A stretch of DNA of 64,000 nt, taken from NCBI GenBank assembly GCA_004298675.1, contig SCRI01000082.1:7146-71145 (forward strand), read 5' to 3'. Below, piece after piece: positions 5,701-56,321 of this stretch (the first letter of the stretch is position 1; every line of letters begins with the position of its first letter). The translations under genes were made by a program, and so were the position numbers. The notes under the pieces were generated by a model. The model worked only from the letters and a program-made list of their open reading frames with translations. It was not told the DNA's origin and did not search any database. The stretch is from a bacterium (GTDB taxonomy: Bacteria > Vulcanimicrobiota > Vulcanimicrobiia > Vulcanimicrobiales > SCRA01).

Positions 5701-6972
5701 TTACGAGGGGTACTCCAGGCGGCATACCCGTGCCGCTTCGCCTACCGGCAGCGCGATGTTCTGCCCCTCTTGCTCGTCGACGATCTCCATCACGTCGTAC
5801 TTGTCCTGAGGCGTCCCGTTGGGACGCAGCTTTCCGAACCAAACCGGCCAGATCAGCGAGTGGTCCGCCTTGCGATAGGAGGCTACGCCCTCCCACAGCG
5901 ACTGGAAGGTCGACCCCTCCAGTGCCCGCGCGATCTTCGCGGGGTCGGTGCTCTTGGTTTCGTTCATCGCCCACAGCAGCCGGTCCGCCGCGATGTAGCC
6001 GAAGCAGCTGCGCGACGTGGCCGGGAAACCGTAACGCTTGCGCCACTCGGCCGCGAAGGTTGCCGCCTTGGCATTCTTCTTCGTGAAGACGCGCTCGCTG
6101 TTGTAGTACCATTCGCTGCCCCAGTAGCCCTGGCGGTACTCCGGCGGCAACGCCCACACGGACTCCAACTCGGCGGCCCAACCCGCGACCGGGAACTTCT
6201 TCAGTAATCCGAACGAGCCGGCTTGTTTCATGAAGTTGACGTAGTCCTGGCTCGAGACGGTCACGATGATCACGTCGGGTTTGGCCGCCTCGATCTTCGT
6301 GAGATAGGGGCTGAAGTCGGTGGTGCCCAGCGGCGCGAGGTCATTGGCGACGATCGTCCCGCCGACTTTCTGCACCACGTCGGCATAGCCGGCGGCAATG
6401 GAGTGGCCGAAGGCGTAGTCGGGTGTGACTTCATACCAGCGCTTGCCGAAGAGCTTGGCGATCGAGAAGCCGGTGGCATGGGTCATCATCCACGTCGTAT
6501 GGCAGGTCATGAACGTGCACCAGCGACAGTCTTTGCCGACGGCGTCGTCGGTATGTCCACCCGCATCCACGAACGGAACGCGCATCGCGGCGGCCGCGCC
6601 GCTCACGGAGAGCGTCACGGCGCTGCTGACGGTCCCGATGAACGCGGAGACTCTCTCCTCGTTGAAGAGTTTACGTGCCTTCTGGACGCCGACGCCGGGA
6701 TTGGTCTGATCGTCCTCGACCAGCTTCTCGATCTTACGCCCCAGCACGCCACCGCGCTCGTTCCATTCTTGGACGGCCATGTCGGCGCCGCGCACCTGAT
6801 TGAGACCAGCCGAACCGTACGGACCGCTCAGTGAGTCGATCTGACCGATTTTGATGGTCTCGGCGGCTTCACCGAGTTTGGGGATGAAGGCGGGAAAGCC
6901 GGCGCCGAGCGCCGCCGCTGCGACGCCTGCGCCCTTGACGAACGTTTTGCGGGAGACAGTTGAATAACGCAA
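5701..6972 (-). CDS. Liv-type ABC transporter substrate-binding protein (orphan)
   Basis: 423 residues from a TTG (6970-6972) with AGGGGG about 8 nt upstream. A Tat/Sec-like leader (SRKTFVKGAGVAAAALGAG) precedes a periplasmic-binding fold type I: IKIGQIDSLSGPYGSAG, RGADMAVQEWNERGGVLGRKIE, DDQTNPGVGVQKARKL, FSPYLTKIEAAKPDVIIV. It resembles the amide/urea/branched-chain amino acid receptor family. No permease or ATPase genes adjoin it, so it must use a distant or shared transporter. Three cysteines around residues 165-175 (GKDCRWCTFMTCH) are unusual. It probably delivers a ligand for the sugar-acid operon that follows 30 bp downstream. Confidence 0.85.
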   Translation of the reverse strand: MRYSTVSRKTFVKGAGVAAAALGAGFPAFIPKLGEAAETIKIGQIDSLSGPYGSAGLNQVRGADMAVQEWNERGGVLGRKIEKLVEDDQTNPGVGVQKARKLFNEERVSAFIGTVSSAVTLSVSGAAAAMRVPFVDAGGHTDDAVGKDCRWCTFMTCHTTWMMTHATGFSIAKLFGKRWYEVTPDYAFGHSIAAGYADVVQKVGGTIVANDLAPLGTTDFSPYLTKIEAAKPDVIIVTVSSQDYVNFMKQAGSFGLLKKFPVAGWAAELESVWALPPEYRQGYWGSEWYYNSERVFTKKNAKAATFAAEWRKRYGFPATSRSCFGYIAADRLLWAMNETKSTDPAKIARALEGSTFQSLWEGVASYRKADHSLIWPVWFGKLRPNGTPQDKYDVMEIVDEQEGQNIALPVGEAARVCRLEYPS

Positions 6973-7005
6973 CGAGATACCCCCTTCAAGTTACGGTAAG
7001 CAGAA

Positions 7006-7164
7006 TCGGATGACGGCATAGACCGCGAAGAGATCGTTACCGTCCACGACCACGCCGTCGAAGCCGTAACCCGGTGCGCGCCCGGCCAGGGTCCTGGCAG
7101 CGCTCTGGCGCGAGCGCAGCGTCGAAATGGCCCAGCAGTTGTTCTGCAAGAAGAAGACAACCGG
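7006..7164 (-). pseudogene. Fragment of pyruvate dehydrogenase E1 alpha (pdhA) remnant
   Basis: In the 414-bp gap between the binding-protein gene and the cupin gene, the minus strand encodes about 53 codons that read like the thiamine-diphosphate enzyme E1 alpha: PVVFFLQNN..WAIST, SRQ.AA.TLAGRA, GYGFDGVVVDGND and FAVYAVIR. The QNN..AIS and YG..G..VDGND motifs are family hallmarks. The frame is closed upstream by TGA (7201-7203) and downstream by TAA (6991-6993), with no start or the rest of the about 330-residue protein. This is a decayed gene fragment, not a functional gene. The rest of the gap shows only promoter-like sequence. Confidence 0.75.
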
Positions 7165-7313
7165 TCGAGACCGATGGAAATTGCGACGCGATCGAAACGG
7201 TCACGACTCCGGCCTCCAACATACCCGTGACGACATTGTGCGTCGCTGCAAACGCCGGTGTCAAGCGAGAGGCTGCGGCATCTTCGGCCTGCGAAAGAAC
7301 GTCGAGATTTTAA

Positions 7314-7328
7314 GTCGTTTTAAGCGAC
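7314..7328. promoter_or_regulatory. Imperfect palindrome upstream of the cupin gene
   Basis: GTCGTTTTAAGCGAC matches its reverse complement at 12 of 15 positions and lies about 60 bp before the ATG of the MBL-cupin gene. A TACACT box (7335-7340) follows and may be the -10 element. It may be an operator; no regulator can be assigned. Confidence 0.3.
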
Positions 7329-7386
7329 ACGTGGTACACTCTTGTTACACGTACAGGGCGTCTTAGTGAGAACGGAGGCAGCCACC

Positions 7387-8487
7387 ATGATGACGAGCAA
7401 GGAGACGACACTCCTGCAGCGGACGTCCCTCCCGGGCATCGCGATGTGGTCGCGCTGGCAAGCCGACCGCTCGATGTTCTTCAATTCGTTCTTCGTCGAA
7501 GGCGAAGAGAACCTCATCGTCGATCCGCTGGCGCTCGAGGATGCCGATCTTCGAACGATCGAGGCCGCCGGCGGTGCCGCTTGGATCGTGGTCACCACGC
7601 GCGACCACGAGCGCCAAGCCGGTGCGCTAGCGCAACGTCTGCACGCACGGATCGCCGCACCGGAGCGCGATCTCAAAGAGCTGACCGTCAAGGTAGAGCG
7701 CGCGTTGCGTGACGGCGACACGCTTGGCCGCGCGCGAATCGTGCAGTTCGACGAGATGAAGTCGCCGGGAGAGTTAGGCCTCTATCTGGCGGATTGCGAG
7801 ACCATGATCGTGGGCGACGCGCTGCAGGGCGATCCGCCCGGCTCGCTGCGCATGGTGCCGGACGCAAAGCTCGGCGATCCCAAGCGCGCGGCGTTGAGCC
7901 TGCGGCGCATCTTGGCGCTGCAGCCGCGCAACATCCTCATGGGCGACGGCCACTGCGTCTTCGGCAACGCCACCCAAGCCCTGGAAGAGTATCTAGCGAC
8001 GCGCACCGACGTGCTGATCCACAAGATCAACCTCGACGAGCTGACCGATTGGACGGAACGGCACGGTCCTGGCAGGCTGCACCGCCGGCAAGCGGAGGTG
8101 GGATTCTTACTCGGCGCCCACCGTCTGGGCTATCAGGTCCTCGAGATCGCGCCGGGCGAGTGGGGCTCGCCGTTGCACGGGCACACCGAAGAGGAGGAGC
8201 TCTACGTTATCTTCGACGGCAGCGGCACGATCCGCTTCACGTTCGGCGAGTACCCAATTCGCAAGGGCGACGTGATCGCGCTGCCCACCGGCAAGCGCGG
8301 CGCGCATCAGCTCCGCAACACCGGCCCCTCGAAGCTGGTGGTGTTGGCGCTGGCGAACAACGAGCCCGGCGACGGCTGCTTCTATCCCGACTCCGACAAG
8401 CTGCTCTTCGCGCGCAACACGATGCCGCGAATGGTCAGCGGCAACCGTGGCACCGACCTCGACTACTGGGACGGCGAATCGGGCTGA
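7387..8487 (+). CDS. Metallo-beta-lactamase-like domain fused to a cupin domain
   Basis: 366 residues from the ATG at 7387, which has GGAGG 8 nt upstream; an earlier ATG at 7342 lacks such a site. The N-terminal half (residues about 10-215) looks like a metallo-beta-lactamase fold whose metal motif is degenerate (IVVTTRDHERQAGAL instead of THxHxDH) and keeps ILMGDGHCVFG. The C-terminal half is a cupin_2 barrel with PLHGHTEEEELYVIFDG and GAHQLRN, which carry the usual histidine/glutamate metal ligands. The fusion suggests a metal-dependent sugar-acid or oxoacid isomerase/regulatory enzyme, but no reaction is assigned. It is convergent with gckA and overlaps it by 25 bp. Confidence 0.75.
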   Translation: MMTSKETTLLQRTSLPGIAMWSRWQADRSMFFNSFFVEGEENLIVDPLALEDADLRTIEAAGGAAWIVVTTRDHERQAGALAQRLHARIAAPERDLKELTVKVERALRDGDTLGRARIVQFDEMKSPGELGLYLADCETMIVGDALQGDPPGSLRMVPDAKLGDPKRAALSLRRILALQPRNILMGDGHCVFGNATQALEEYLATRTDVLIHKINLDELTDWTERHGPGRLHRRQAEVGFLLGAHRLGYQVLEIAPGEWGSPLHGHTEEEELYVIFDGSGTIRFTFGEYPIRKGDVIALPTGKRGAHQLRNTGPSKLVVLALANNEPGDGCFYPDSDKLLFARNTMPRMVSGNRGTDLDYWDGESG

Positions 8488-32934: not shown

Positions 32935-34086
32935 ATGATGAATTCTGTTGGAGCATTAGCCGGAATTCGCGTACTCGATCTCACGCGCATTGCGAGCGGG
33001 CCTTACGCAACGCTGCTGCTCGCCGATCACGGCGCCGATGTCGTGAAAGTCGAGGAGCCATCCCGGGGGGACGACACGCGCGCCTTTCCCCCGTACATCG
33101 CAGGAGAATCGACGTACTACCTCAGCCTCAATCGCGGCAAGAAGTCGGTAGCACTTGACCTGAACTCCGCGCGCGGCCAAGCGCTACTCCGTTCCGCCGT
33201 CCCGGACTTCGACGTCCTGATCCACAACTATCGGCCGGCCTATGTGGAACGGGCGCGCCTGGGATACGAAGAGCTTGCGGCCATCAATCCCCGGCTCATC
33301 TACTGCACGATTACGGGTTTCGGAACCAGTGGCCCCAAGGCGGACAAACCCGCGTACGATCTGTTCGTGGCGGGGATTGCAGGCTTGATGAGTGTGACCG
33401 GGGAGCCGGACGGGCCGCCCCAGAGACCCGGGGTAAACCTCATCGACCATCTTGCCGGTGTCAACGCGGCCTTCGGCATCCTGCTCGCGCTAAAGGCCAG
33501 AGAGCGAACGGGACGCGGTCAACGCGTCGAGGTCTCGCTGCTCGACTCGCTCCTTTCCTGCTCCGGCTATCTCGTTGCGGCGGCGGCCGCGAACGGCAAG
33601 GCGCCGCGACCGACCAGTCACAACCAACACGCACAGATCGTGCCTTACGGGACGTTTCGCACGGCCGATGGCTACATCAACATCGGCGTGCTCAACGACA
33701 AAGTATGGCAACCTTTCTGCCACGCGCTGTCGCGCGACGATCTCTCCGCAGATCCGCGCTTTCAAACCAATGCCCTACGCGTCGAGCACAAGAGCGCGCT
33801 ACTCGATCTCATCCGCCCCGTACTCCTGACCCGAGCCTCGGGTGAATGGCTCGAGTCGTTCGAAGCGGTGGGCATTCCGTGTGGCCCGATCAACTCATTT
33901 GCCGAGGTCCTTACCGATCCTCAGGTCATTCACAATAGCTTGCTTGTCGAGATGCAGCACCCAGCATATGGCTCGGTCACGGTCGTCCGCTCGCCCGTGC
34001 TGTTGAGTGAGACGCCCGCAAGCGTCTCGCTGGCGCCTCCGATTCTAGGCGAGCACCCGATTAGCACGTTGAGGAGGCTGGCATGA
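32935..34086 (+). CDS. CaiB/BaiF-type (class III) CoA-transferase
   Basis: 383 residues. Family III marks: LAGIRVLDLTRIASGPYATLLLADHGADVVKVEEPSRGDDTR at the start, LNRGKKSVALDL, and KPAYDLFVAGIAGLMSVTG, whose Asp fits the catalytic aspartate; later TGRGQRVEVSLLDSLL. It moves CoA between organic acids. It is the first gene of the operon with the GWTDGLP protein, the UGSC selenoprotein and the TRAP receptor, and its stop overlaps the next ATG by 4 bp. A dicarboxylate imported by the TRAP system is a likely substrate, by inference. Confidence 0.9.
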   Translation: MMNSVGALAGIRVLDLTRIASGPYATLLLADHGADVVKVEEPSRGDDTRAFPPYIAGESTYYLSLNRGKKSVALDLNSARGQALLRSAVPDFDVLIHNYRPAYVERARLGYEELAAINPRLIYCTITGFGTSGPKADKPAYDLFVAGIAGLMSVTGEPDGPPQRPGVNLIDHLAGVNAAFGILLALKARERTGRGQRVEVSLLDSLLSCSGYLVAAAAANGKAPRPTSHNQHAQIVPYGTFRTADGYINIGVLNDKVWQPFCHALSRDDLSADPRFQTNALRVEHKSALLDLIRPVLLTRASGEWLESFEAVGIPCGPINSFAEVLTDPQVIHNSLLVEMQHPAYGSVTVVRSPVLLSETPASVSLAPPILGEHPISTLRRLA

Positions 34087-35138
34087 TTGGCTCTCAAACG
34101 TCGCGCGAAGCGATCGAGATGATTGAACTGATGTATCAAGCAGGCTGGACGGACGGTTTACCGGTCGTTCCGCCGCTACCGGAACTCGTCGATGCCTTCG
34201 TGAGGTACGTCGACCGTTCTCCGGACGACCTGGTTGGCTATATCCCGCCCCTCGGCGGCAAGGCAACCATGGCGAAGGTCGCCGCGAACGCGGTGATGGC
34301 GGGATGCCGGCCGGAATACATGCCCGTAATCCTGACCGCCATCGATGCCATGCTGGACGACAAATTCAACCTCGGCGGAATGCAGTGCTCGACGCATCTT
34401 TCAACTCCCCTCTTGATCATCAATGGCCCCATCCGAAAGGAACTCGACATCAATTGCGGGGCCAACGTGTTCGGGCAGGGCTGGCGCGCCAACGCCACGA
34501 TCGGGCGGGCCGTCAAGCTCGTCCTGGTGAACATCGGCGGTGCGATTCCGGGCGTCACGGATAAAGCCACGCTCGGCCACCCGGGGAAGTACACCTACTG
34601 CATCGGGGAGAACGAAGAGGAATCCCCGTGGGAGCCTCTGCACGTCGAGCGCGGATTCAGTCCGGCAGACAGCACGGTCACCGTCTACGGCAGCGAGGCA
34701 CCCCATAACATCAACAATCAGATGGTCGACAACCCGTTCGATCTGCTTACGACGATCGGCAGCATGATGTCCAATCTCGGATCGAATCACCCATATCTCA
34801 TGGGCGAGAGTTTCGTCGCGCTGTGTCCGGAGCACGCGAGTGTATGTGCCGCGAATCGTTTTCGGAAAGTCGACGTTCAGCAGTTCTTGTTTGACAACGC
34901 GCGCAACGAACATCGCCGCCTCAAGGCTGGTGGAATTTACGGCGCGGACACGGCGAAGTATAACACCTGGCCGCATTGGATCGACCGGCAGCGGGACGAT
35001 GTCATGGTCCCGGTCTGCCGGCGTGCCAGCGATATCTCGGTGATCGTAACCGGCGGGCCGGGGCGACACTCGGCCTACCTTCCGGGCTGGTCCTCTCGCT
35101 CGGCAACGCGAAAAATCGAACTAGCGAGGAGCAAGTAG
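34083..35138 (+). CDS. GWTDGLP-motif protein, UGSC partner (family 1 of 3)
   Basis: 351 residues; no function is known. The N-terminal motif GWTDGLPVVPP (residues 21-31) and the conserved VMAGCRPEYMP (Cys75) recur in the proteins at 53289 and in the C-terminal half of the one at 54529; all three also share GWRANATIGR/FQANTSIGR-like and NPWEPLHVE-type segments. The single conserved cysteine could be functional. It starts inside the CoA-transferase stop and ends 2 bp before the UGSC selenoprotein, so the two are almost certainly cotranslated. In the other locus the same domain is fused to a UGSC domain, which implies a direct partnership. Confidence 0.82.
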   Translation: MIGSQTSREAIEMIELMYQAGWTDGLPVVPPLPELVDAFVRYVDRSPDDLVGYIPPLGGKATMAKVAANAVMAGCRPEYMPVILTAIDAMLDDKFNLGGMQCSTHLSTPLLIINGPIRKELDINCGANVFGQGWRANATIGRAVKLVLVNIGGAIPGVTDKATLGHPGKYTYCIGENEEESPWEPLHVERGFSPADSTVTVYGSEAPHNINNQMVDNPFDLLTTIGSMMSNLGSNHPYLMGESFVALCPEHASVCAANRFRKVDVQQFLFDNARNEHRRLKAGGIYGADTAKYNTWPHWIDRQRDDVMVPVCRRASDISVIVTGGPGRHSAYLPGWSSRSATRKIELARSK

Positions 35139-35140
35139 AC

Positions 35141-36013
35141 GTGCAGACAGTAACTTCGACCAATGACGACCGCAAAGCCCTGGCCGCGAAGCGGCTGGCA
35201 GAGCTAGGCCTCGTTGATCCAGTGGACCATTCCTCAACGACTCTGGCTGCGGCTCAGCGCTTGGAGTCGCTCGCGGGTAAGCGCCCCGGACTGCTTGACA
35301 ATCGCAAGGGGAATGGTGACCGCCTACTCGAGCGCATCGGTCAGCTGCTTGTCGATCGGTATGGAACGCTGGAGCCGTACCGGACGACGAAGTTCATCTA
35401 TGCCCGCCGAGCCGACGAGAAGATCCTCGAGGATCTGGCGGCAAGGTGTGACTTCGTCGTCACCGCGGTCGGTGATTGAGGGTCTTGCGTGTCGTGCAGT
35501 GTGCACGACGGCATCGAGTTGGAGACGCGTGGAATTCCTTCCGTGGCGATTCATACGTCGGCCTTCCTCGGATCCGCACGCGCGCATGCGTCGGCGTTCG
35601 GGCGACCCGATTACGAACCGGTGATCATGCGGCATCCGATTGCGGGTCTGACCCCAGACGAGGTCATAGCGCGTGCGGACGAGATCATGCCGACAATCGT
35701 CGCGTACCTTCTCGGGCAGGAGATTGACGCTCCGTCTGCGCAGCCGGCAGCCATGAGCGATGCGGAGGCCGCGATAACGGCGGCACTCAGTGAGCTCCGC
35801 AGCGGCTTCAATGCCGACGGCGCCGACCTCGAGGTCGTCACGGCAGGCGCGAGTTCGGTAACCGTGCGTCTGATAGTGACGCCGGAGACCTGCCTCGACT
35901 GCATCGTTCCCAAAAGTGCCCTTCAGCACATCGTGGAGAGCGCGGTACGTAAGGCGCATCCAACGGTGCAGTCCGTCGAACTGATCGACCCACGTGAGGT
36001 GACCATTCAATAA
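35141..36013 (+). CDS. UGSC-family selenoprotein with NifU-like C-terminal tail
   Basis: 290 residues counting selenocysteine at codon 113 (TGA 35477-35479). The GTG at 35141 follows GAGGAG by 9 nt. Before the TGA: RPGLLDNRKGNGDRLLERIGQLLVDRYG and CDFVVTAVGD; directly after it: GSCVSCSVHDGIELETRGIPSV. The U-G-S-C motif and the continuity of homology on both sides match the UGSC (seleno)protein family. A perfect hairpin (35491-35509) follows the TGA. Residues about 205-290 resemble a NifU-type domain with a CLDC pair (251, 254). The C-terminal part could begin at GTG 35489 as a separate protein, but that would lose the motif. Reaction unknown; redox or C-S/C-N chemistry is plausible. Confidence 0.87.
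35491..35509 (+). promoter_or_regulatory. SECIS-like hairpin after the UGA of UGSC-1
   Basis: GTCGTGC (35491-35497) and GCACGAC (35503-35509) pair perfectly over 7 bp around the loop AGTGT. The stem begins 11 nt after the TGA, and G is the second loop base. Bacterial SECIS elements lie directly downstream of UGA with G near the loop start, where SelB binds. The distance and loop closely resemble the well-studied E. coli fdhF element. Confidence 0.85.
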
Positions 36014-50820: not shown

Positions 50821-51753
50821 TCAGAGTAACCCGCGCTTCTGCAAGTATTCGGTCGCAGCGGCAGCGGCTACGGCGCCTTCGCTCAGTGCATTGACGATCA
50901 AGCCGCGATAGCCGCGGCGCACGGCACCGGCCGCAAAAACGCCCGGCACGGAAGTCCGGCCGTCACTATCCGTCTCGACCAGCCCACGAGCATCACGCTG
51001 CACGTCCGGCGGGAGAAATTCGACGTTCGGATCTGCGCCGACGAACACGAATACGCCGCGCACCGGAAGCTCTTGCATGCTACCATCCGCTATGCTGCGC
51101 AGGACCACGCCCTCGACGCACTCCTTGCCGAGTACTTGTTCCACTACCGTCTCCCAGTGGAAAGCAATACGCTCGCATTCAGCGGCTGCCTGCAGGTATC
51201 GCCGACGCGCACGCAGCCGCGAGCCACGTACGATCACTGCTACGGAGCGGCAGATCTCTCCCAGATGCAGCGCCGCCTGAAGTGCGGCATCGCCACCGCC
51301 GACCACTGCAACGTCGGCGTCACGGAAGAGGCCACCATCACACCAGTCGCACTGCGAAACACCACGGCCGCTCAACTCGCCCTCGCCGGGAACGCCGAGG
51401 GCATGTAGACGCCCGCCCGATGCGATGATGACCGCGTGCGCACGGACCATCCGGTCTTGCGTCGTCACCTCGAACCGCGGTGCCGCAATCTGAACAGCCG
51501 TCACGCGTGACTCCACCAGCGTCCCGCCCAGCGTCGCAAATCGCTCCTTCAACGTCTCCGCGAGCACTGCGCCGGAGACGGAGGTCGGCGCCGGATAACT
51601 ACCGAGGACGCCTACGTTCGCGACCTGCCCGCCCGGCAGCGGGCTTGGCTCGATGCAGACGACAGAGGCACCGAGTTCGGCAGCCTCCGCCGCAGCCGCG
51701 AGTCCGCAAATGCCGCCACCGATAACGGCGACGTCGCATTCAAGTCCGAGCAT
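50821..51753 (-). CDS. Thioredoxin reductase-like FAD flavoprotein with CxxC
   Basis: 310 residues. FAD motif VAVIGGGICGLAAAAEAAELG at the N-terminus, NAD(P)H motif VAVVGGGDAALQAALHLG in the middle, and between them the redox pair C135-C138 in SQCDWCDGG at the place of the CATC motif of TrxB; the C-terminal VFVFVGADPNVEFL and GVFAAGAVRRG are also family marks. It is the last gene of the UGSC-2 operon, overlapping pxpA by 14 bp. It likely supplies electrons to a disulfide, or to the selenoprotein, by inference. Its partner thioredoxin is not in the window. Confidence 0.87.
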   Translation of the reverse strand: MLGLECDVAVIGGGICGLAAAAEAAELGASVVCIEPSPLPGGQVANVGVLGSYPAPTSVSGAVLAETLKERFATLGGTLVESRVTAVQIAAPRFEVTTQDRMVRAHAVIIASGGRLHALGVPGEGELSGRGVSQCDWCDGGLFRDADVAVVGGGDAALQAALHLGEICRSVAVIVRGSRLRARRRYLQAAAECERIAFHWETVVEQVLGKECVEGVVLRSIADGSMQELPVRGVFVFVGADPNVEFLPPDVQRDARGLVETDSDGRTSVPGVFAAGAVRRGYRGLIVNALSEGAVAAAAATEYLQKRGLL

Positions 51754-52522
51754 GGACTACCTCAGACATCGGAGCGATATGCACGCCGGCGCGCTCCAGC
51801 GCGCCACGTAGCTCGATCGCTACCTCGGCCGCACCCGGCGTATCCCCGTGCAGGCAGATGGTATGCATCGGAATCTCCAGCCACGCTCCGTCGATGGCGC
51901 GCACGCGCCCCTCCAGCACCATCGCCACCGCCCGCTTCACCACCCGTGCGTGATCGGTTATCACCGCACCCGGTTGACGCCGCGACACCAGCGAGCCGTC
52001 GCCATTGTATTCGCGGTCGGCGAAGACCTCGTAGGCCACGCGCATCCCCGCCGCCTCCGCAGCGCGCGCGAATTCCCCGCCGAAGCTGACGATCAATAGG
52101 TTGGGATCGAAGTCCTTGACTCCAGCTACGATGGCGTCGGCCAACGCACGATCCGTCAGCGAAATATTGTTGAGCTGCCCGTGCGGCTTGACGTGCTGCA
52201 GCGGGACGCCGAATCGCCGGCAGAAGCCGGCGAGCGCGCCGATTTGGTAAAGCACGTCGGTGCGCGCCTCGTCGGGCGTCACGTTGAGGTTACGGCGTCC
52301 AAAGCCCACCAGATCCGCGAAGCCCGGGTGTGCTCCGACGCCAACGCCGTGACTCTTTGCCATCATCACCGTATGCGCCATCACACGCGGGTCGCCACCG
52401 TGAAAGCCACATGCCACGTTGGCAGACGAGATCGACGCGAACATGCGCTCATCGTCGCCCATCTTCCAGGCTCCGTAACTCTCACCCATGTCGCAGTTTA
52501 GGTCGATTACCGTTTCGCTCAT
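51740..52522 (-). CDS. pxpA: 5-oxoprolinase subunit PxpA (LamB/YcsF family)
   Basis: 260 residues with the family motifs IDLNCDMGESYGAWKMGDDERMFASISSANVACGFHGGDP, GAHPGFADLVGFGRRNL, QHVKPHGQLNN, YEVFADREYNGDGSLVSRRQPGAVI and HTICLHGDTPGA. PxpABC hydrolyses 5-oxoproline to glutamate with ATP. The PxpC subunit gene is not present in this operon, so the pair may act with a distant PxpC or on another cyclic amide. Located between pxpB and the flavoprotein. Confidence 0.92.
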   Translation of the reverse strand: MSETVIDLNCDMGESYGAWKMGDDERMFASISSANVACGFHGGDPRVMAHTVMMAKSHGVGVGAHPGFADLVGFGRRNLNVTPDEARTDVLYQIGALAGFCRRFGVPLQHVKPHGQLNNISLTDRALADAIVAGVKDFDPNLLIVSFGGEFARAAEAAGMRVAYEVFADREYNGDGSLVSRRQPGAVITDHARVVKRAVAMVLEGRVRAIDGAWLEIPMHTICLHGDTPGAAEVAIELRGALERAGVHIAPMSEVVHART

Positions 52523-52531
52523 CGGCTCTCC

Positions 52532-53284
52532 TCACGCGAGCAGTGCGCTACCGGGCGGCTCGGGCGCAAGCATTTCTTCGCCGGTAGCGAACGCGGCCGC
52601 GAGATGCTCGTACTGCTCGCGGCCGATCGGATAGAAGCGGAGCACATCGCCCGGCGCCCAGAGCACCGGTGGAATACGTTCAAGATTAAACGGTACAACA
52701 GGCGTCCGTCCCAGGAGGTGAAAGCCGCCCGGACTCGCCGTTGGGTAGATCGTCACCTGATGCCCGCCGAGCGCCACGGACCTAGGCGGCACAGCAACGC
52801 GCGGCGAGCCACGCCTAGGCAGGCGCAACGCGTCAGGGAGCATGCCGCAAATCGGCTGGCCGGGCGCGAAACCCACGGTGAAGATGCGGAAGTCCACTGC
52901 GGCGTGGAGGGTAATGACTTCATCCACGGTCAGACCGGTACGCGCGGCAACCTCAGGCAAGTCTTCCCCCGCGTACCACACCGGGACGCGGAAACGCCGG
53001 CCGGCAATCGTCTCATCCCCGCCTTGCATGAGCGCACTCCGCAATGCGGCGAGCACGGCGTCGCGCGTTGTCGCAAGCGGATCGAACTCGATCAGGAGTG
53101 TATTATAGGAAGGAATCGTTCCCCAGACTCCGGGTAGCGCGCCGTCTGCTAGCAGCCGCTGTGCCATACGCGTCGCCAGCAGGACGCGCGCGTTCGCGGC
53201 AACATCCAGCACTTGGCCAAACTCGATCAGTACGGCGGCATCGCCGACGGGAAGCGTGTTCGACCACGGCAATGATCGCACCAT
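52532..53284 (-). CDS. pxpB: 5-oxoprolinase subunit PxpB (KipI family)
   Basis: 250 residues from the ATG at 53282-53284, 4 bp after the previous stop. KipI-like marks: DAAVLIEFGQ, IPSYNTLLIEFDP, VPVWYAGEDLPEVAARTGLTVDEVITLHAAVDFRIFTVGFAPGQPICG(M)LP and GGHQVTIYPTASPGGFHLLGRTP. The frame extends far upstream to 53569 but only because it overlaps the preceding gene. Works with PxpA and PxpC in other bacteria; no pxpC follows here. Confidence 0.9.
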   Translation of the reverse strand: MVRSLPWSNTLPVGDAAVLIEFGQVLDVAANARVLLATRMAQRLLADGALPGVWGTIPSYNTLLIEFDPLATTRDAVLAALRSALMQGGDETIAGRRFRVPVWYAGEDLPEVAARTGLTVDEVITLHAAVDFRIFTVGFAPGQPICGMLPDALRLPRRGSPRVAVPPRSVALGGHQVTIYPTASPGGFHLLGRTPVVPFNLERIPPVLWAPGDVLRFYPIGREQYEHLAAAFATGEEMLAPEPPGSALLA

Positions 53285-53288
53285 GGTC

Positions 53289-54521
53289 CTACGTGGCGAC
53301 GTCCTGCCGTAGGCGAGACCAATCCCGCGGCAAGGTAATCGGAACCACGATTCGACACGGCGGGAACCCCCACGTCGGAAAGTAGACGTGCTGCGGGATC
53401 GGTACGTCAGCGCCGGCAACGAAGACGACAATGTCCTCCGCGCACTCGACGATGGGGATGGGCGCATGAGCGGCCTCGGCCGCAACGACCCACGACGGCA
53501 GGCCGTATGTCGGAGCGATCTTTGCACGCACCCACAAACGCTTCCACTCTTGGATCGGCATGCGTGCACGTTCGAATAGGTAGCGCGATACGTCGCGCTT
53601 ACTCCACCCCTGTTCCGCTACTTGCCTAGCCGTCGCCGGGGCAACGAGCACCGTCACGTAGCCGCCGTGTAGGATGCTGAAGGCCGAAGCTGCCGATGCC
53701 ATGACGCTCGCCAGATCGTCGAGTCCGCCCGTGACATTGATGCTGCACTCCGCGCGCAGCAGCGTGACGGCGCTGCTCTCCGCTGGCAACCCGCTCTCGA
53801 CATGCAGCGGCTCCCAGGGATTGGCCCGCGTGCGTTCGGCCAGGCAGAGCGTATAGCGCGCTGGCTGGCCGGTGCCCGCCAACGAGGTGACGGCTGGGAA
53901 TCCGCCACCAACGTTGTTCATGATCAAACGCACGGCCCGGCCGATCGTTGCGTTGGCACGCCAGCCGGGACCGAGCGCGCCGGTCCCGGCATTGACGCCT
54001 AGTTCCTCGGTCAGCGGACCGCTGACGACCAGCAACGGCGTGACGCTCTCGTCGGTCGTTTGCACACCGCGGAGGTTGAAGCGTGGATCGAGCAGGCCAC
54101 GCACCGCCGCCAGCACGATCGGGAAGTAATCCGGCCGGCAGCCCGCCATGACGGCGTTGACCGCGAGCTTCTCCACGCTGGCTTCGCCGTGCATCGGCTC
54201 GAGTTCGCCGATGACGGTCGCCGCGGACTCTGGTGAGTAGCGCAGCGTGTCGCGCACACGGGCTACCGTCGGCGGCACGATCGGCAGGCCGTCGGTCCAG
54301 CCACGGCGATAAAAGCGCGCGTTGACTGCCGCATCGGCATCCTTGCCGCGCACGCCCTCCACGCGCTGCAGCACACGGCCACCGCCAGCTGCACGCCCTC
54401 CCACGGCGTCCGTCTCGCGCATATGTTCGCTCAGGGCGTCATCGACCCACCCGCCGCCACGCTGAGCTCCGATAGGGTTGTGGATCCACTGCGTGCCGCC
54501 GTTCTCGCGCGGATCGCTCAT
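53289..54521 (-). CDS. GWTDGLP-motif protein, UGSC partner (family 2 of 3)
   Basis: 410 residues; function unknown. After a variable N-terminal region (residues 1-70) comes RGWTDGLPIVPPT (residues about 73-85) and VMAGCRPDYFP with Cys128, then RANATIGRAVRLIMNNVGG, WEPLHVESGLPAESSAVTLL and a C-terminal GYVTVLVAPATA/HVYFPTWGFPPCRI. Homologous to the product at 34083 and to the C-terminal half of the neighbouring selenoprotein, from which it is 7 bp downstream. Two linked copies suggest subunits of one complex. Confidence 0.82.
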   Translation of the reverse strand: MSDPRENGGTQWIHNPIGAQRGGGWVDDALSEHMRETDAVGGRAAGGGRVLQRVEGVRGKDADAAVNARFYRRGWTDGLPIVPPTVARVRDTLRYSPESAATVIGELEPMHGEASVEKLAVNAVMAGCRPDYFPIVLAAVRGLLDPRFNLRGVQTTDESVTPLLVVSGPLTEELGVNAGTGALGPGWRANATIGRAVRLIMNNVGGGFPAVTSLAGTGQPARYTLCLAERTRANPWEPLHVESGLPAESSAVTLLRAECSINVTGGLDDLASVMASAASAFSILHGGYVTVLVAPATARQVAEQGWSKRDVSRYLFERARMPIQEWKRLWVRAKIAPTYGLPSWVVAAEAAHAPIPIVECAEDIVVFVAGADVPIPQHVYFPTWGFPPCRIVVPITLPRDWSRLRQDVAT

Positions 54522-54528
54522 CTACACG

Positions 54529-56271
54529 CTATGTCGCAAGCGAAGACCGCAGCTTAGCCGCCCAATCGGTTGGCAGAGCGATCGGCCGCATCGTCGGAAA
54601 TCCAAGCATGCCATTGTGCGCCAAGAACGTACAGTTTGTCCGCATCGGGTCACCGCACACGGCGATCACAAAATCCTCGGGGCGAACCACCAGCGGCACC
54701 AGCCGCTCGCGATCGCGAGAGGCACCGAAGATCTTGGGTGCCTTCTGCAGCATCGTCATGTCGTAAAGCGAACGCTTGCCGGGAACCAAGTTCGTCCAAT
54801 CCGAGATATAGCGCTCGAACTGCCGTGCCGGGATACGTGCGTGCTCGAATAGGTAGGCCTGTACGTCGGCCTTGGTAAAGCCCGAGCTCGCTATCGCCTT
54901 GGCGACGATGGGTGAGAGCACGAGCATGGGCTTGTAAGTACCGGTCGCCATGCCGACGGTGAACATCAGCTCCCAACCGGTGTACTTGACGACCGCATCG
55001 GCGAGATACGGCAAGCACTCCTCCGCCGAGGAACCGTAGACCGAAACGATGACGTGCGCGCCCGTGTAGCGCGCAATGCAGACGCCGCTCTCGTCCGCCG
55101 GCAGACCCATCTCGGAGCATATGCTTGGCCACCCGATCTCGGCCAACGCATCCTCGTTTTCCGCCATGACGACACGCCAGGTCCCGCCGAAGGTTGCCTT
55201 GTCGTTTTGGAACGGCAGAAATCCGGCGACGTTGCGCAGATAGAGGCGCCAGAAGCGGCCGATGCTGGTGTTGGCCTGGAAGCCGTCGCGCAGTGCTCCC
55301 TGCTCGTAATTGAAGCCAAGATCCTTGATGAGCGGGCCGTTGATAACGATCTGCGTCTCGGCGCCGGGCGTGTTGCCACTGTGCTCGACGCCGTAAGCCG
55401 GGTCGGCCATGGCCTCGACCAGCGCGACCAGGATCGGCATATACTCGGGGCGGCAGCCGGCCATGACGCCGTTCACCGCGATGTTCCAGATGGTGGCGGC
55501 ACGGTGATCGGGAGGGATCTCCGCCACGACCTCATCCGGGTCGCGGTCCACGAAGGCGAGGAAGGTGCCGATGCGCTCCCGCGTCGGCGGCACGATTGGC
55601 AGTCCGTCGGTCCAGAGGTTCTCGTAGAAGTAGCGGTGGACCTCATCGATGCTTCCCTCGAACACCACCTCATGCGGCGCCGGCTCGGTCTTCTGCAGAG
55701 CGCCGTCCGTCGTGGTGGTCAAGCAATCGATCAGCCGCGCGAGCGTCACGGCCGAAATGTTGCGATCCAGTTCCTCAACACTCTGGACGTCGGGATGCCC
55801 CGGAACCATCGCGACCCCAAGAGCAGGCATACCCAAGCCCGACGACGTGGCCTCCGCCTGTCCGAGGAAGCCCTCGCAGACCAGCGTTGCCGTAGGAAAT
55901 CCGGCTCTCTCGACCGCGGCGCTCACCCGCAGCACGGCGGGTGTGCAGCTCCCTCAACAGCCTATGCCGGAGACCACTGCATCGACGCCGAGTGCGCGCA
56001 GCTTGTCCGGCAAACCGCCAACCACTTCGTGCTCGTTCTCGCCGTGCGTGGAGCCAAACGTCTCGTGGCCTATGAAACGTATGTCGGGAAATCGGCGTTG
56101 CAGCTCGCGCTCGAGCATGGGGAAGATCTCGTCGCCGCGGAACAGATAGTCCCAGACGAAGGCGACGGTCTTTCCGGCAAGTGAATCAAGCCGCGGGGCC
56201 AGGGGGTGCGACTGCAACGCCCGCTCTCCACGCGGCCAGAAGACGGCATAGGTACCGCCGTGCTCTTCCAT
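54529..56271 (-). CDS. UGSC selenoprotein fused to a GWTDGLP domain
   Basis: 580 residues counting selenocysteine at codon 106 (TGA 55956-55954). The ATG at 56271 follows GGAG by about 6 nt. The N-terminal UGSC domain has LAGKTVAFVWDYLFRGDEIFPMLERELQRRF and VDAVVSGIGC before the TGA, then GSCTPAVLRVSAAVERAGFPTATLV after it; the C-terminal domain (residues about 215-580) carries LWTDGLPIVPPT (about 219-230) and VMAGCRPEYMP (Cys273). The frame is open from 54529 to 56271 apart from this TGA. A hairpin (55924-55943) follows the TGA. If the TGA were a stop, two unrelated-looking halves of a known fold arrangement would result; the hairpin and a second UGSC gene in the window argue for selenocysteine. 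Confidence 0.86.
55924..55943 (-). promoter_or_regulatory. SECIS-like hairpin after the UGA of UGSC-2
   Basis: On the minus strand CACCCGC (55943-55937) and GCGGGTG (55930-55924) pair perfectly over 7 bp around the loop CGTGCT. The stem begins 10 nt after the TGA, and G is the second loop base. This is the same geometry as the hairpin in the other selenoprotein gene although the sequences differ. Confidence 0.83.
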
Positions 56272-56321
56272 TGGTTCTCCTGCTCTACCAACAGAACATC
56301 TTCAATCTTAGCTTGAGCAAT

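Follow-up and report, generated by a model that had tools for sequence, protein, structure and literature searches.

A predicted selenoprotein that joins UGSC and WTDGLP domains, possibly a selenol-driven reductase remotely related to GrdB and PrdB

The fusion gene and its neighbours

Within the window (the whole 64,000-nucleotide stretch of DNA that was analysed), the minus strand from 56271 to 54529 is the coding strand of a gene in which a UGSC domain is joined to a second domain, here termed WTDGLP. The gene opens an operon, where it is followed in order by an unfused GWTDGLP gene, PxpB-like and PxpA-like genes, and a flavoprotein gene. The features of the locus are as follows.

54529-56271, minus strand: UGSC-WTDGLP fusion selenoprotein gene (predicted), 580 aa, with one in-frame TGA
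56277-56281, minus strand: Shine-Dalgarno-like AGGAG upstream of the ATG, at the right spacing
55720-56244, minus strand: UGSC domain, which spans residues 10-184, matches PF24696 at E=8.8e-27 and is modelled as Rossmann-like
55954-55956, minus strand: TGA codon of the predicted Sec106, which with Cys109 forms UxxC; 15 of the 80 related loci have Cys here
54532-55674, minus strand: WTDGLP domain, residues 200-580, without a Pfam or NCBIfam match
55453-55455, minus strand: Cys273 codon, in VNGVMAGCRPEY; the only invariant Cys of the WTDGLP domain among the aligned fused proteins
53289-54521, minus strand: a second GWTDGLP protein, this one unfused, encoded 7 nt past the end of the fusion gene
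52532-53284, minus strand: PxpB-like gene of the same operon (CT_C_D, PF02682)
51740-52522, minus strand: PxpA-like gene of the same operon (LamB_YcsF, PF03746)
50821-51753, minus strand: thioredoxin-reductase-like flavoprotein with a CDWC motif, the last gene of the operon

When TGA is read as selenocysteine (U), the minus strand translates into a protein of exactly 580 residues whose only U is residue 106, as the initial annotation had proposed in describing a single 580-residue protein. The U106 codon (55956-55954) is the only in-frame TGA and stands in the context VVSGIGC-U-GSCTPAVLRV. The initial annotation named no strand; a gene on the plus strand of 54529-56271 is ruled out by one TAG stop and two TGA codons. 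The name GWTDGLP, given earlier to the motif of the second domain, fits the neighbouring unfused copies but not the fusion protein, which reads LWTDGLP.

The gene had also been described as the second UGSC selenoprotein, which holds for the window, where there are two UGSC genes, with the qualification that the genome has four in total. The other UGSC gene of the window is unfused and likewise has a partner gene beside it.

34083-35138, plus strand: unfused GWTDGLP gene beside the other UGSC gene
34976-36013, plus strand: the other UGSC gene, unfused, start approximate, with its TGA at 35477-35479

The protein of this unfused gene extends about 80 residues past the UGSC domain and carries a CLDCIVP motif in the extension. 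Downstream of a third UGSC gene of the genome (L023, G000:C82:1-2700) lie two unfused GWTDGLP genes.

Decoding of the in-frame TGA

When 84,980 species genomes were scanned, 80 related loci came back, mostly fused across nearly the whole query; 64 of them have TGA at the selenocysteine position, 15 have a Cys codon, and one has a Gly codon. A congeneric species has an orthologue that matches residues 1-579 at 83% identity and keeps the TGA. Measured against this orthologue, dN/dS is 0.11 upstream of the TGA; beyond it, the value is 0.15 for the rest of the UGSC domain and 0.08 for WTDGLP. These low values on both sides, with the aligned Cys codons, bear out the earlier description of an open in-frame TGA between family-like flanks.

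Directly 3' of the TGA lies a candidate recoding element.

55924-55943, minus strand: SECIS-like hairpin, CACCCGC-CGUGCU-GCGGGUG

Computationally, 45 of 49 TGA genes were found to have a hairpin with a stem of 5 bp or more and a G early in the loop, and 4 of 13 Cys genes a hairpin with a stem of 5 bp or more. Compared with synonymous shuffles, the 48 nt from the TGA onward are more stable in the 49 TGA genes (mean z -1.05) than stretches elsewhere in the same genes (z -0.19; p=1.5e-7 for the difference), and the corresponding 48 nt of the Cys genes have no excess stability (z +0.12). The Nocardioides Cys version encodes nearly the same residues with the stem broken. Because the core stem is invariant, there is no RNA covariation, and an Rfam search of the window returned no match.

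The genome encodes tRNA-Sec (71.7 bits), selB, and selA, and each of its four UGSC genes contains exactly one in-frame TGA, as do 26 of the 29 UGSC matches of the phylum. Relatives of selA or selB flank the fused genes at six loci (L077, L098, L110, L111, L115, and L123). A genome-wide reassignment of TGA to an amino acid, for which nothing speaks beyond the open frame that such a code would give, can practically be dismissed: TGA is the commonest stop among the inspected genes of the window (18 of 33), which as the usual stop of other genes argues against a global change, and the selenocysteine machinery is present.

Were the TGA a true stop, a 105-aa piece would be made, and the remainder would be either a separate product from GTG 55935 or the remnant of a pseudogene. 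A mechanical 468-aa ORF does begin at that GTG, and annotation pipelines do truncate a relative at the TGA (in Acidovorax T1, a 96-aa 'hypothetical'). This reading is nevertheless very improbable, since the codon is shared by so many loci and replaced by Cys in others, purifying selection acts on both sides of it, the UGSC domain crosses it and is modelled as one domain, and the GTG just past it has no well-placed Shine-Dalgarno sequence. As judged from the genomic record, UGA at codon 106 is thus almost certainly decoded as selenocysteine by SelB and tRNA-Sec with the adjacent hairpin; the exchange of TGA and Cys, the selection, the hairpin, and the machinery agree on the read-through into a single chain that had been proposed at the outset.

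On plasmid p2-T1 of Acidovorax sp. T1 (L169, 6929-8500), the RefSeq annotation stops at the TGA, giving no more than a 96-aa hypothetical protein, and the UGSC fusion continues for more than 400 residues past the annotated end. Annotation can thus truncate UGSC fusion genes at this codon.

The UGSC domain and its relatives

The fusion protein scores 94.7 bits against PF24696, above the gathering cut-off of 25, and all 62 aligned fused proteins match this family; against the NF041046 equivalog it reaches 46.3 bits, under the curated cut-off of 125. U/C106 and C109 are kept in 61 of the 62. The full-length AlphaFold model comprises two domains and is confident (pLDDT 92.4, pTM 0.92). The UGSC domain aligns with PurE at Z 10.0 (rmsd 2.8 over 122 residues), with which other three-layer folds tie. 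Foldseek with the full-length model returned nothing below E 0.001, and sequence searches of the PDB with the full protein and with WTDGLP, UGSC, and PrdB-like profiles found no credible relative. On the model, the UGSC domain appears Rossmann-like, and the thioredoxin-like fold guessed in 2008 is not obvious; the best structural matches among those listed are Rossmann-like or PurE instead.

In the NCBIfam matches of the 62 fused proteins, the PrdB model TIGR04483 was hit by 17 (best E 3.4e-5), GrdF by eight, TIGR01918 by four, and GrdB by three; none of these matches reached the curated GrdB/PrdB cut-offs, the window protein itself scoring 15.9 bits against the TIGR04483 cut-off of 300, and PF07355 had no match. 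A profile built from the PrdB-like UPLC selenoproteins found in this phylum was compared with that of the fused proteins; the two aligned (E 6.6e-6, probability 85%) with their selenocysteine columns facing each other. These profile matches support the UGSC domain as a remote relative of GrdB/PrdB in the selenocysteine region, though not as a member of the family.

One of the PrdB-like selenoproteins, with UPLC, is encoded in the same genome (L159, G000:C18:47358-47750), and the PrdB-like genes found in the phylum (L157-L164) likewise have TGA at the selenocysteine position. At L160, L161, and L162, a peroxiredoxin-like gene with a TPVU motif, probably another selenoprotein gene, lies downstream of the PrdB-like gene.

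The fold and the kinship bear on an alternative proposal, in which UGSC would be a conventional antioxidant or disulfide oxidoreductase of thioredoxin type and WTDGLP an accessory redox domain. The UxxC motif and the thiol-redox genes nearby would suit such a protein, as would the thioredoxin-fold guess and the suggestion of a redox domain in the 2008 survey (PMC2398784). The confident model matches Rossmann-like folds rather than thioredoxin, however, GrdB/PrdB models match the sequences, and the neighbourhoods look catabolic rather than stress-related, so this proposal is considered unlikely.

The WTDGLP domain

A Pfam and NCBIfam search with residues 200-580 matched no family. C273, in VNGVMAGCRPEY, is invariant in 62 of 62 aligned fused proteins. 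Modelled alone, the domain is predicted with confidence (pLDDT 94.1), and its best Foldseek matches are class I fumarate hydratases, which are weak (E about 1e-3, TM about 0.2) and on a second look reached Z about 6; for this reason, no fold is assigned. GrdE/PrdA as a relative of the domain is unsupported, PF09338 having been found in 0 of 58 WTDGLP domains; it was also silent in 147 genomes of the phylum, where the controls were silent too.

Fumarase ligates a 4Fe-4S cluster, for which one Cys alone does not suffice. The fumarase matches, weak as they are, and the organic-acid-handling neighbours would be in keeping with a non-reductive enzyme (e.g., a hydratase/dehydratase or lyase) in which selenocysteine serves as nucleophile or metal ligand. 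Against this stand the very weak fold match, the single invariant Cys, insufficient by itself for cluster ligation, and the reductase-type neighbours, and a non-reductive enzyme is judged somewhat less probable still than the thioredoxin-like one.

Unfused GWTDGLP proteins have features of their own. A CxDGTC tail, possibly a redox tail, recurs at the C-terminus of those at L018, L054, L065, and L072, and the exported Cys version at L147 has a CxDGTC-like motif after an apparent signal peptide. A GWTDGLP protein adjoining a UGSC gene may bear an N-terminal thioredoxin-like CPTC domain with marginal Pfam support (TraF, E 0.03), candidates being at L037 (2007-3458, minus strand) and L081 (about 6411-7580, plus strand).

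Partnership and phylogeny of the two domains

Fused and adjacent homologues, both of which the initial annotation had suggested searching for, were found. UGSC-WTDGLP fusions occur in many phyla in the scan of species genomes, and within the phylum a WTDGLP coding stretch lies within 1.5 kb of 27 of 29 UGSC genes, the remaining two having the partner about 1.9 kb away and a contig end, respectively. In the haloarchaeon Natrinema, the UGSC and partner genes overlap, and the UGSC protein has Cys. The fusions and the adjacency uphold the earlier Rosetta-stone argument for joint action, and the two domains very probably operate as a unit.

A tree of the UGSC domains places the UGSCTP type, every member of which is fused, in one clade (support 100/96). 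Most proteins of the classical UGSCTS type are unfused, the few exceptions being those of Acidovorax, Variovorax, L093, and L153. The tree thus splits the fused genes, but a single fused clade is not rejected by the AU test (p=0.085), so that repeated fusion is suggested rather than shown. Tandem copies also occur: a Chloroflexi genome (L153) has three fused UGSC genes in a row (4211, 6280, and 7974, plus strand), and of two Lachnospiraceae paralogues (L112; 650-2380 and 5232-6890) one has CGTC and the other GASG, the latter having lost both redox residues and retained the invariant WTDGLP-domain Cys.

Genomic context and electron supply

The order of fused gene, second WTDGLP gene, and flavoprotein gene recurs at six loci (L077, L078, L079, L084, L094, and L107); at L096 the flavoprotein gene immediately follows the fused gene, and in Variovorax a flavoprotein with CTAC is encoded close to the Cys fusion. 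A flavoprotein relative is present at only 13 of the 80 loci. In Bacillota (L140 and L143), where the fused protein has Cys and what looks like an export signal, a DsbD_TM gene comes next, and L143 has a gene for a TlpA-like thioredoxin downstream as well. Together, the flavoprotein and DsbD/TlpA contexts point to thiol-electron supply in more than one cell compartment, at a minority of loci.

Other neighbours of the fused genes encode CoA transferases, MmgE/PrpD, PxpAB, and acid or amino-acid transporters, from which the substrate is probably, if weakly, predicted to be a small organic or amino acid. The PxpA- and PxpB-like genes of the window (51740-53284), with which no PxpC was seen, were, unlike the flavoprotein, not found at the 80 related loci, and so may hint at this organism's own substrate.

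Proposed function

The fusion protein is best read as a selenocysteine-containing two-domain protein that acts as a thiol/selenol-driven reductase akin to GrdB/PrdB, to which a probability of roughly 0.55 is given. The UGSC domain would present a UxxC selenol/thiol pair on its Rossmann-like fold, and WTDGLP, as the constant partner with invariant Cys273, would probably hold the substrate. The selenol could then attack or reduce the bound substrate, C109 would resolve the selenol intermediate as a selenenylsulfide, and the operon flavoprotein may re-reduce the U106-C109 pair, directly or via thioredoxin. Counted against this reading are the GrdB/PrdB matches short of their cut-offs, the missing third Cys, the WTDGLP domain without kinship to GrdE/PrdA, the flavoprotein relatives at only 13 of 80 loci, and the Lachnospiraceae paralogue without U and C, the tandem twin of which keeps CGTC.

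In D-proline and glycine reductase, the selenol takes part in C-N cleavage together with a Cys-derived pyruvoyl group (PMC10298544). By analogy with these enzymes, the reaction of the fusion protein may be a reductive bond cleavage. It is a more tentative idea that UGSC and WTDGLP constitute a new class of selenol-dependent reductase, in which a GrdB/PrdB-like selenocysteine domain is paired with an unrelated substrate domain and fed by its own flavoprotein in the cytoplasm or, for the exported Cys forms, by DsbD/TlpA; it would reductively split organic acids at a C-N, C-S, or C-halogen bond. In this reading, Cys273 could even supply a pyruvoyl group, as a Cys does in PrdA/GrdE.

Relation to known systems

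The UGSC family, its selenocysteine, and a fusion of UGSC with a domain called 'Unknown_1' were published in 2008 from the GOS survey, which places UGSC proteins among the most abundant selenoproteins of aquatic metagenomes and guesses a thioredoxin-like fold (PMC2398784). The family is also listed in PMC13188914 and PMC9312934, and the accessible portions of all three papers assign UGSC no function. The predicted fusion selenoprotein is therefore a variant on a published theme. As in the published fusion, a UGSC selenoprotein is joined to a conserved domain of unknown function, and Unknown_1 is likely the same partner domain as WTDGLP. What is new, as far as the literature searched extends, is how broad the fused subfamily is, the exchange of TGA and Cys within it, the remote kinship with GrdB/PrdB, and the electron-supply context. 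The GrdB/PrdB link, the constant partner domain, and the likely electron donor make UGSC function directly testable, aided by naturally occurring Cys versions in hosts available in culture (Nocardioides, Variovorax, and Natrinema).

Like the UGSC family (PF24696; NF041046), the fusion protein has a UxxC selenocysteine motif in its N-terminal domain, with UGSCTPAV where the classical type has UGSCTS[C/W]. The thioredoxin reductase and DsbD/CcdA-TlpA systems find their likeness in the CxxC flavoproteins of thioredoxin-reductase type and the DsbD_TM/TlpA genes beside some fused genes, where gene order suggests that they are coupled to the fused protein. The GrdB/PrdB proteins (PF07355, TIGR04483, TIGR01917/8) differ in the third Cys of UxxCxxC, which is absent from the fused type (UGSCTPA) and present in some unfused UGSC proteins (UGSCTSC), in that the WTDGLP partner is not recognisably GrdE/PrdA, and in that the hosts of the fused genes are mostly not clostridia; the selenocysteine loop itself, DAV...U-x-x-C...E-x-x-G-I-P-T, aligns with theirs.
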